Assembly: GCF_015476115.1 (NCBI RefSeq)
Contig: NZ_CP064295.1
Location: forward strand, 4,024,001-4,088,000
Direction: 5' to 3'
Source: Aegicerativicinus sediminis
GTDB lineage: Bacteria > Bacteroidota > Bacteroidia > Flavobacteriales > Flavobacteriaceae
DNA: 64,000 nt
A program made the position numbers and the translations under genes. The stretch's first letter is position 1. Each line of letters starts with the position of its first letter. This document shows positions 36,907 through 39,014 of this stretch, one piece after another. The notes beneath the pieces are model-generated. The model saw only the letters and a program-made list of their open reading frames with translations. It was not told the DNA's origin and ran no database searches.

Positions 36907-37575
36907 ATGTCAATTACAAATAATTTAGTCAAGTTAAAAAACGAATTAGCAAATAATGTGACTCTTGTTGCCGTTAGTAAAACAAAACCATTATTAGATA
37001 TTCAGGAAGCTTATGATACAGGCCATCGTCATTTTGGAGAGAACAAAATTCAGGAGATGGTAGAAAAATATGAACAGTTACCTAAAGATATAAAATGGCA
37101 TATGATCGGGCATGTGCAAAGGAATAAAGTAAAATACATGACCGACTTTGTACATCTCATCCATGGTGTAGATAGTTTTAAGCTTTTAAAAGAAATAAAC
37201 AAACAAGCCATTAAAAGTGAACGCATAATAGACTGTTTGTTTCAAATTAAAATAGCCAAGGAAGATTCAAAATTTGGAATGGATAAAGCAGACGTTTTAA
37301 ACGTTATTTCCTCAGCTGAATTTGCGGAACTTAAAGCCGTTAATATTAAGGGGTTGATGGGAATGGCAACTTTTACAGAAAATGAATCGGTAATCAAAGA
37401 AGAGTTTACCTATCTAAAAGACACCTTTGAAGAATTCAAGGAATTATCCAAATCTAATTTTAATATGGAGATCCTCTCTATGGGAATGAGTGGAGATTAC
37501 CAACTTGCTATAGAATGTGGAAGTAATATGGTAAGAATAGGCAGTACTATTTTTGGTGAACGAAATTACAATTAG
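36907..37575 (+). CDS. YggS/PROSC family PLP homeostasis protein
   Basis: A 222-residue single-domain alanine-racemase-fold PLP binder: LVAVSKTKP (PLP Lys), HFGENKIQEM, IKWHMIGHVQRNKVK, LMGMATF and SMGMSGDYQLAIECGSNMVRIGSTIFG. It has no known catalytic turnover; the family buffers pyridoxal phosphate and affects amino-acid and keto-acid pools. A strong Shine-Dalgarno precedes the ATG, rare here. Confidence 0.94.
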   Translation: MSITNNLVKLKNELANNVTLVAVSKTKPLLDIQEAYDTGHRHFGENKIQEMVEKYEQLPKDIKWHMIGHVQRNKVKYMTDFVHLIHGVDSFKLLKEINKQAIKSERIIDCLFQIKIAKEDSKFGMDKADVLNVISSAEFAELKAVNIKGLMGMATFTENESVIKEEFTYLKDTFEEFKELSKSNFNMEILSMGMSGDYQLAIECGSNMVRIGSTIFGERNYN

Positions 37576-37601: not shown

Positions 37602-37609
37602 TATATTTG
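37602..37609 (+). promoter_or_regulatory. -7 element for the exonuclease gene
   Basis: TATATTTG fits TAnnTTTG, and TTTG lies 17 nt upstream (37581-37584). Transcription would begin near 37615, so the start codon must lie in the following ~50 nt. Confidence 0.5.
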
Positions 37610-37649
37610 ATTTAATGGACGTAGGTAGTTAACGCATTAAAAAAGACCG

Positions 37650-39014
37650 ATTTACGCAATTTTAGACATAGAGACCACAGGCGGAAAGTACAATCAAGAA
37701 GGTATTACAGAAATTGCAATCTATAAATTTGATGGACATGAAGTGGTAGACCAGTTTATTAGTTTGGTTAATCCTGAAAGAGAAATTCAACCTTTCGTGA
37801 CCAACTTAACTGGAATTAATAGTACCATGTTAAAATCTGCACCTAAATTCTACGAGGTTGCCAAACGTATTATAGAAATAACTGAAGATTGTGTATTGGT
37901 TGCTCATAACGCAAGTTTTGATTACAGAATCCTTAGAACCGAATTTAAACGACTAGGTTACAGTTACAAACGAAAATCGTTATGTACTGTGGAATTAGCC
38001 AAGACACTTATTCCAGGGCAACCTTCCTACAGTTTAGGTAAGTTGGCAAGGTCTCTAGGTATCCCGGTAAGTGATCGACATAGGGCTCAGGGAGATGCCC
38101 TTGCGACGGTTAAACTCTTCAAAATGTTGCTTACAAAGGATTTAGAAAAATATATTGTGAAAGATGCCATAAACGTTGAATCCGCATACAGTCTAAAAAA
38201 GGCTCATAAAGACATTATTGACGCATTGCCTATTTTAATTGGTGTGTTTTACATCCATGATACTAATGGTGAGATAATATATGTTGGCAGAAGTAATAAC
38301 ATCAAGCAAAAAATCAACCAGATTTTAACTGACATTGATCCATTTTCCCAGAAAATTCAACAATTAATTGCTACAGTAACTTATGACAGCTGTGGCAATG
38401 AGATGATATCACATTTGGTATATCATGAAGAGATAAAAAAGAATAATCCACTTTTCAATAAGACAGCAACTCCGGCAAAACCTAAATTTGCTCTTTACAC
38501 TTCAACAGATAGTGCTGGCTATCATAATTTATATTTAGACGCCTATTCCCAAAAGAAGAATCCCATAACCAGTTTTAATGATAAAAGGTCTGGAAACTAT
38601 TGGTTAAACACTTTTATCGAAAAATACCAACTATGCATGGACTTATGTGGTATAAAAGCTACTGAAACTGGTTGTTTTAACTACCATGTTAATCAGTGTA
38701 ATGGTGCTTGTATTGGAGATGAGGGACCGAATGAGTATAATAAAAGATTTCAGTTATTTCTAGACGATTATAAACTTCATGGTAGATCTTTAGCAATTGT
38801 GGATAAAGGACGAGAGATTGGAGAAAAAGGGATTATCTATTTAGAGAATAACGCCGTTAAAGGATATGGTTTTATTGATTTGAATTATCAGCTAAAAAAT
38901 AAATCAATTCTAGAAAGAATCATTTCAGAAATTGAACCAAGAAATTCTAATCTTTTTTTAATACAAGCCTATTTACGTAAGAATAAAAATTATAAAATAA
39001 TCGAATTAGAATGA
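37650..39014 (+). CDS. DEDDh exonuclease fused to GIY-YIG (UvrC/Cho-like) domain, atypical start
   Basis: A ~454-residue protein. The DnaQ-type exonuclease (1-165) has ILDIETTGG (Exo I), VLVAHNASFDYRILRTEF (Exo II) and HRAQGDALAT (Exo III); a UvrC-type GIY-YIG domain (about 195-290) has GVFYIHD...IIYVGRSNNIKQKI and HEEIKKNNPLFN; the C-terminal region is Cys-containing. The fusion resembles bacterial DnaQ-Cho proteins implicated in DNA repair. No ATG, GTG or TTG lies between the in-frame stop (37638-37640) and Exo I. ATT 37650, giving (M)YAILDIETTGG, is the best start; GTG 37743 would delete Exo I. A frameshift in the A6 run (37639-37644) is the alternative. Confidence 0.75.
   Translation: MYAILDIETTGGKYNQEGITEIAIYKFDGHEVVDQFISLVNPEREIQPFVTNLTGINSTMLKSAPKFYEVAKRIIEITEDCVLVAHNASFDYRILRTEFKRLGYSYKRKSLCTVELAKTLIPGQPSYSLGKLARSLGIPVSDRHRAQGDALATVKLFKMLLTKDLEKYIVKDAINVESAYSLKKAHKDIIDALPILIGVFYIHDTNGEIIYVGRSNNIKQKINQILTDIDPFSQKIQQLIATVTYDSCGNEMISHLVYHEEIKKNNPLFNKTATPAKPKFALYTSTDSAGYHNLYLDAYSQKKNPITSFNDKRSGNYWLNTFIEKYQLCMDLCGIKATETGCFNYHVNQCNGACIGDEGPNEYNKRFQLFLDDYKLHGRSLAIVDKGREIGEKGIIYLENNAVKGYGFIDLNYQLKNKSILERIISEIEPRNSNLFLIQAYLRKNKNYKIIELE

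Follow-up and report, generated by a model that had tools for sequence, protein, structure and literature searches.

A Conserved AUU Start Codon, Almost Always without a Shine-Dalgarno Sequence, Probably Throttles a Putative DNA-Repair Nuclease Encoded behind yggS in Flavobacteriaceae

The Nuclease Gene and Its Surroundings

The window analyzed here, a stretch of 64,000 nt (G000:C1:4024001-4088000) from the single-contig genome of Aegicerativicinus sediminis, carries on its forward strand a nuclease gene downstream of a gene which, from its sequence, we take to encode a YggS-like, PLP-binding protein (Table 1). Past the in-frame TAA at 37638-37640 the frame reads KRPIYAILDIETTGGKYNQEGITEIAIY, with its stop at 39014, and on from the A6 run at 37639-37644, which overlaps this TAA, its codons are AAA AGA CCG ATT TAC GCA ATT TTA GAC ATA GAG (K R P I Y A I L D I E). 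Ahead of the conserved protein body, the stop is followed by only one ATG, GTG, TTG, CTG or ATH codon, the ATT at 37650, and the GTG at 37743 is codon 32 counted from this ATT, downstream of the DxE motif of the exonuclease. Among 57 frames of the window (stop-to-stop, at least 100 codons, largely non-overlapping), the nuclease frame has the longest run from a stop to the first ATG, GTG or TTG, namely 34 codons, and the second-longest run, of 31 codons, lies ahead of an apparent signal peptide.

Table 1. Features of the nuclease locus, in positions of the window
Feature	Position	Strand	Remarks
YggS-like PLP-binding protein gene (presumed from sequence), upstream neighbor	36907..37575	+	ATG start
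TATATTTG, match to TAnnTTTG	37602..37609	+	candidate promoter element
In-frame TAA	37638..37640	+	stop immediately 5′ of the start
Nuclease gene, DEDDh exonuclease and Cho/UvrC-type GIY-YIG region	37650..39014	+	454 codons and stop
ATT, inferred AUU initiation codon	37650..37652	+	aligned with the ATG/TTG/GTG/ATT/ATC/ATA start of orthologs
Codons 2-10	37653..37679	+	few out-of-frame start triplets and weak folding in orthologs with AUH or UUG/GUG starts
RNase_T / DEDDh exonuclease domain	37659..38120	+	Pfam PF00929, E=3.2e-34
GAC ATA GAG = D6-I7-E8, first exonuclease catalytic motif (DxE)	37665..37673	+	D6 and E8 unchanged across the 17-sequence alignment
GTG, first canonical in-frame start codon	37743..37745	+	unlikely start
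GIY-YIG region like the UvrC N-terminal domain	38208..38462	+	PDB 1yd6, E=3.3e-4; NCBIfam Cho over a longer stretch
Four invariant cysteines C329, C342, C350, C354	38634..38711	+	UvrC/Cho-type C4 region, 17-sequence alignment

The protein scores over the cut-off of NCBIfam TIGR00573 (DnaQ-family exonuclease), and its matches among PDB sequences are to DinG/PolC-type exonucleases at about residues 2-168 and to UvrC (1yd6) at residues 187-271. The NCBIfam Cho model matches with E=1.5e-17, yet under its curated cut-off, and the Pfam GIY-YIG model gave no match in the protein at E 0.001. In an alignment of 17 sequences D6, E8, D91, H144, and D149, which are presumably the DEDDh catalytic residues, are invariant together with the four cysteines. 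Thus the features of DnaQ-GIY-YIG fusions are present, i.e., an N-terminal DEDDh exonuclease with all catalytic residues, a GIY-YIG domain, and a C4 region. Since it reaches 216.5 bits with PRK07883, the model of such fusions, against a best cut-off of 495, the nuclease is counted as a relative and not a member of that family. A role in DNA repair is probable from the domains.

Two observations on the protein family can be added here. The GIY-YIG motif of the window, YVGRSNNIKQKI (38265-38320), has Lys at the position where Arg is expected; Arg is found there in 108 of 109 matched orthologs, the Lys of the window being the sole exception (24 of the 133 orthologs were not matched), possibly leaving the endonuclease half weaker in this species. 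The genome also carries, at another locus (L246, G000:C1:3486349), a second full-length paralog, which is 35% identical and begins with ATG; in one species the paralog (L254) has two GGA-N5-TCC motifs of SOS type and no ATG or TTG near its conserved start.

Start Codon Usage among Orthologs

The first-pass annotation had found no ATG, GTG or TTG ahead of the first catalytic motif, and had pointed to the ATT at 37650 as the place where an initiator Met would fit. Both observations hold, as none of the three codons occurs between the TAA and the GTG at 37743, and the ATT sits exactly at the initiator position of the orthologs. The comparison with orthologous starts, which had been suggested as a check, covers 133 distinct starts from 135 loci, mostly one per genus, consisting of an even sample of the family and the first 30 loci. 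In the even sample the protein was matched in 143 of 149 genomes, six of the matched genomes (G082, G088, G130, G140, G152, G159) standing outside the start count; among 60 relatives, 57 showed some match to the protein, other DnaQ-like proteins included. The aligned column holds TTG in 45, ATG in 40, ATT in 37, GTG in four, ATC in three, and ATA in one of the orthologs, and the remaining three rows (AAC, AAT, and TTA at the column) have TTG one codon upstream. An initiation codon is therefore found at the column or one codon upstream in all 133 orthologs, and AUU, AUC or AUA (hereafter AUH) is the start in 41 of them, the window gene included, which corresponds to about a third of the genera. 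The recurrence of the same weak codon class at the same place in 41 orthologs, the other 92 having ATG, TTG or GTG there or, in three of them, TTG one codon upstream, strongly supports the AUU initiation that had been proposed.

A similar distribution is seen in other cuts of the data. Among the 30 best loci, the counterpart of the ATT at 37650 is TTG in 11, ATG in 10, ATT in eight, and ATC in one. In 80 named loci, which are the best 80 of 571 candidates and mostly Flavobacteriaceae by title (Winogradskyella, Psychroserpens, Tamlana, Algibacter, Flavobacterium, and Aquimarina among them), it is TTG in 36, ATG in 19, ATT in 18, ATC in four, and ATA in three, so that 25 of 80 are AUH; these two sets of 80 and 133 share organisms, so their counts are not independent. 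A second genome of the same genus (L002) has an AUH start at the same codon. Eight more genomes of the family carry ATG, GTG or TTG at the start place or one codon upstream, one of them (L309) perhaps being the paralog. Outside the family, the three rows of the 133 that come from neighboring families (L027-L029) have no AUH start, all 41 AUH rows belonging to the family of the window, and the 25 class-level loci that were read out of 27 have ATG, GTG or TTG at the start place or at most five codons upstream, with no AUH required (3 of 16 further loci were unmatched by the regular expression). AUH starts thus appear to be confined to the family in the sample examined. On a FastTree protein tree, from which the first 14 residues were left out, AUG, UUG/GUG, and AUH are exchanged for one another 37 times or more, and exchanges between AUH and the other starts taken together number 21 or more, with no row lacking an initiator.

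The surroundings of the AUH codons leave little room for another start upstream. No ATG, GTG or TTG follows the upstream in-frame stop in 40 of the 41 AUH genes (the exception is L209), 29 of 41 have no ATG, GTG, TTG, CTG or ATH codon of any kind between that stop and the start, and in five a single codon separates the two. Among the named loci, 21 of 25 with an AUH start are without an in-frame upstream ATG or TTG, and L061, L062, L079, and L086 have one further upstream. Programmed frameshifting was also considered; most of the AUH orthologs have their in-frame stop 1-10 codons ahead of the start.

A sequencing or assembly error would be another explanation of the missing start. The A6 run at 37639-37644 could be short of one A, a one-base loss there being the second alternative of the first-pass annotation, or a base of an original ATG could have been miscalled, and the true gene would then start in the usual way. 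Homopolymers are indeed prone to errors, and a single substitution leads from ATG to ATT. However, an AUH codon recurs at the same place in 41 of 133 orthologs, 25 of 80 named loci, and the genus mate L002, and relatives are without ATG there too, while the frame that a lost base would restore meets, by eye, a TAA at 37630-37632 and then no ATG, GTG or TTG. Because the AUH start recurs in other genomes, the loss of a base is rejected, and an error of either kind can be practically discarded.

The GTG at 37743 deserves attention as the first canonical start of the frame, and peptides starting from it had been named as an observation that would count against initiation at the ATT. Translation from this codon would yield an N-terminally shortened protein without DxE, i.e., a regulatory or inactive exonuclease, whereas the AUU start keeps the motif. 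In the 41 AUH orthologs the corresponding codon is GTG in seven and TTG in one, which means that it is not conserved, and D6 and E8, which would be removed, are kept in all 17 aligned sequences. Moreover, codons 2-31 are under purifying selection, with a pN of 0.051, a pS of 0.698, and a ratio of 0.073 over 820 pairs of AUH genes, and form the more constrained part of the gene, the ratio being 0.167 in an ungapped, position-by-position comparison of codons 33-160. Given that codons 2-31 are constrained and the GTG is poorly kept, the protein start lies upstream of 37743, and a start at this GTG is very improbable.

Very little credit can be given to a pseudogene that has lost its start codon. 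The Lys in place of the GIY-YIG Arg, the only such case among the matched orthologs, would be in keeping with decay, but the frame of 454 codons is intact, the DEDDh residues are retained, and codons 2-31 differ from those of the genus mate by two nonsynonymous and 13 synonymous changes. As judged by this comparison of genomes, translation of the nuclease gene begins at the AUU at 37650, and the weak start looks like an inherited brake on the amount of enzyme and not like a sequencing error.

Control genes allow the start usage to be placed in its lineage. The yggS gene was located in 125 of 134 loci and has an ATG in every one of these 125, although this test was lenient, accepting any ATG 8-40 codons before a VSK-type motif. 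Fourteen full-length paralogs of the nuclease start with ATG (10) or TTG (three) or have only a GTG further up (one), and six shorter DnaQ-like proteins all have an ATG start. In infC, read in 28 of 30 loci (L031-L060) of the same order, the start codon is ATA in 24, ATC in two, CTG in one, and another codon in one, with a canonical start in none of the 28. Because infC of the order is without a canonical start, the lineage appears to use AUH initiation routinely.

Sequence Context of the Weak Starts

In Bacteroidia, the Shine-Dalgarno (SD) sequence is generally unused and AUG is avoided near starts, according to two studies (PMC6847099, PMC9976891). The nuclease orthologs follow this pattern in that a 5-mer of SD type occurs at positions -20 to -1 in 1 of 41 AUH, 2 of 52 UUG/GUG, and 3 of 40 ATG genes. 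The sole AUH case is L003, in which the 5-mer lies at -8 to -3, very near the start, and none was found in the same interval of the window gene. An SD 4-mer at -20 to -5 is likewise found in 1 of 41 AUH genes, against 0.5 expected from shuffles. The strong or extended SD which backs the weak codon in sigR, ccpN, and cvfC1 is thus not a trait of the AUH orthologs.

What distinguishes these regions is the scarcity of competing start triplets. Downstream of the start, where expectations were obtained by synonymous resampling near the start, the 41 AUH genes have 0 out-of-frame ATG (24.8 expected), 12 GTG/TTG (38.5), and 13 ATH (37.8); the corresponding values are 3 (30.4), 8 (44.2), and 26 (42.0) in 49 UUG/GUG genes, and 13 (21.5), 20 (28.6), and 36 (32.2) in 40 ATG genes. 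Upstream, at -25 to -1, ATG occurs in 1 of 41 AUH, 1 of 52 UUG/GUG, and 4 of 40 ATG genes, for which shuffling predicts 8.9, 11.7, and 13.5, and GTG/TTG in 1 of 41, 5 of 52, and 16 of 40, with 6.7, 8.6, and 14.1 predicted. Avoidance of AUG is therefore general, though more marked at weak starts, and it is the weak starts that are accompanied by a pronounced scarcity of GUG/UUG and AUH. The same tendency can be followed in a single codon, Tyr2. In genes without an ATG start it is TAT in 1 of 84 cases where codon 3 begins with G and an out-of-frame ATG would arise, and in 6 of 9 where codon 3 does not, while ATG-start genes often have TAT ahead of a G (12 of 35).

Predicted folding of -25 to +36 is weaker than the resampled mean in 38 of 41 AUH, 46 of 49 UUG/GUG, and 32 of 40 ATG genes. 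A conserved RNA element had been entertained for the synonymous conservation of codons 2-7 and was rejected, as this conservation fits the absence of start triplets and the weak folding instead. T at -1 is found in 29 of 41 AUH and 33 of 52 UUG/GUG genes, vs. 8 of 40 ATG genes; the window gene, having G at -1 and C at -3, is without the typical -1 U. Extended pairing of a -1U with A37 of the initiator tRNA was reportedly described by Esposito in 2003, and the excess of T at -1 fits such pairing. Ala3 (37656-37658 in the window) is encoded by GCA in 33 of 41 AUH against 15 of 40 ATG genes. This choice of GCA is not accounted for by the avoidance of start triplets; the second codon of infC, too, is often GCA.

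These contrasts between start classes (T at -1, GAC6, ATA7, TAC2, GCA3, and out-of-frame starts) have Fisher p-values from 6e-5 to 4.3e-10, in which relatives and not evolutionary events are counted, and for which the three orthologs that have TTG one codon upstream were kept in register with the aligned codon. Path-disjoint pairs on the tree gave no significant association of start class with the early features (smallest sign p 0.109), and further tree-pair tests of the start class, with too few pairs, gave none either. Any association of start class with the early synonymous codons is confounded by shared ancestry.

It can be argued from the above that the non-canonical start is simply tolerated, a gene in low demand drifting among weak initiators with neither IF3 control nor selection for low output. 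The frequent exchange of UUG, AUG, and AUH, which amounts to 37 or more changes among three states on the tree, speaks in its favor, as does the use of ATG, GTG or TTG by the 25 class-level orthologs outside the family. On the other hand, ATG is the start in only 40 of 133 orthologs, compared with 125 of 125 for yggS under the lenient test, and the depletion of competing start triplets near weak starts suggests that accurate initiation is selected. We regard such tolerance as quite possible, though short of probable.

Transcription and the Upstream Region

A promoter at 37602 had been taken to confirm that the mRNA begins just upstream of the nuclease gene. This is unsupported by a sigma-70-type promoter and terminator scan, which gave no hit at 37602 and no more hits than shuffled sequence, as well as by the gaps of the orthologs. 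The sequence TATATTTG fits TAnnTTTG, which we take to be the -7 promoter element of Bacteroidetes; between the end of the yggS-like gene and the nuclease gene, this motif occurs in 1 of 40 AUH-start orthologs, and in 1 of 42 and 3 of 38 of the other start classes. The many TAnnTTTG matches of a 150-nt scan lie mostly outside this gap, one match of the window, at 37548, being inside yggS. The distance from the yggS-like end to the nuclease start, located by motif, is 5-140 nt in 40 of 41 AUH orthologs (in one it was not found). Because TAnnTTTG is rare in the gap, cotranscription of the nuclease gene with yggS is the more likely arrangement in most species.

Within the leader, just past TATATTTG, a five-codon ORF (ATG...TAA, 37615-37632) lies in another frame. 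This ORF has no counterpart in the leader of the genus mate as read, which speaks against a leader-peptide mechanism. Short tandem repeats were seen by eye to abut the start codon in several orthologs, such as CTTTTAA in L004, L082, L145, and L151, and ACTGAAT- or TTGATA-like units in L092, L099, L106, and L121; these may serve as unstructured, start-poor leaders.

A survey places a GIY-YIG exonuclease in the SOS regulon of Bacteroidetes (PMC8565304). Neither of the Bacteroidetes SOS (LexA-like) motifs, GGA-N5-TCC and CTAA-N5-TTAG, was found upstream of the window gene. Over 150 nt upstream they occur in 4 and 0 of 133 orthologs, which is close to the 11 and 5 of 798 in the coding background. 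SOS control of the window gene is thus rejected, neither motif being present at the gene, and the exonuclease of the survey may be the second paralog.

A Possible Mechanism of Control

From these observations, we consider it highly probable that a conserved AUU start, almost always without SD, throttles a probable DNA-repair nuclease encoded behind yggS. In most species the nuclease would be translated from the yggS message, and the ribosome would pick the AUU almost always without an SD, presumably aided by a leader that is A-rich, G-poor, and weakly structured, and by the clearing of competing AUG, GUG, and UUG on both sides. The AUU at 37650 would lower the yield, by analogy with AUU and AUA in S. 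aureus reporters, and the weak codon could in this way keep a potentially harmful exo/endonuclease at a low level. Gating of the start by IF3, as in infC and sigR, is plausible. Since IF3 discriminates against AUU, the output would depend on the balance of IF3 and ribosomes, being higher when there is little IF3 activity per ribosome.

It is tempting to extend this to a family-wide, SD-independent gate in Flavobacteriaceae that ties the dose of a repair nuclease to IF3 and the state of translation, with the start region shaped accordingly, but we put this forward tentatively, as a rather unlikely generalization. If true, the absence of competing triplets, the A-rich leader, and the -1 U, which in many species could pair with A37, would be the marks of such shaping. 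Dozens of orthologs in each start class offer a natural test set for the choice of weak codons without SD and for gating by IF3.

Comparison with Known Systems

To our knowledge, few bacterial genes with conserved AUU, AUC or AUA starts have been documented. The AUU start of E. coli pcnB is said to limit its translation; the likeness is that of a nucleic-acid enzyme held scarce by an AUU start, and the difference is that of another protein in another phylum. A conserved AUU start of the nuclease gene, or one in Flavobacteriaceae, was not found reported in the openly licensed PMC literature.

In E. coli and other bacteria, infC starts with AUU, AUC or AUA and is under autocontrol by IF3 (PMC5472188, PMC13009471). 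The nuclease gene resembles it in an AUH start kept across relatives, but its product, a nuclease, allows no direct autocontrol loop, and its start class is not fixed, being exchanged with UUG and AUG among genera. The sigR gene of Streptomyces has a GTC start that is repressed by IF3 (PMC5472188). It shares with the nuclease gene a conserved non-canonical start in a stress-response gene, and differs in the GTC codon, in its extensive ribosome binding site, in encoding a sigma factor, and in an IF3 control that is demonstrated, whereas for the nuclease it is proposed by analogy. In Staphylococcus, cvfC1 (AUU) and ccpN (AUA) are described in PMC13009471 as yielding, in one medium, about 10% as much as AUG. 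They likewise represent non-canonical starts within one lineage, but there an extended SD directs the selection, while here the SD 5-mer is found in 1 of 41 AUH genes.

A close parallel is PncA (BBE22) of Borrelia burgdorferi, which starts with AUU and whose database entries are truncated at a downstream start and lose N-terminal sequence needed for activity (PMC13398362); it concerns a single enzyme, and the nuclease a family-wide comparison. That predicting starts from ATG, GTG, and TTG alone has its limits is pointed out in PMC5472188. For the nuclease, a gene finder confined to these three codons must misplace the start in about a third of the genera examined, and in the window it would lose the catalytic DxE motif. 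As for the protein itself, the Cho-like+Exo or PRK07883 fusions and the C4 region of UvrC/Cho are described in PMC1564403; these fusions likewise have a DEDDh exonuclease followed by a Cho/UvrC-type GIY-YIG and C4 region, and the nuclease differs in scoring far under the NCBIfam cut-offs.

Taken together, conserved non-canonical starts are of a known kind. What appears to be new is their occurrence in this gene and this lineage, almost without SD support and at a site where AUG, UUG, and AUH replace one another across a family. The staphylococcal and Streptomyces cases, as described in the papers cited, lean on a strong SD, whereas the nuclease gene keeps its weak starts in a phylum that is generally SD-less.
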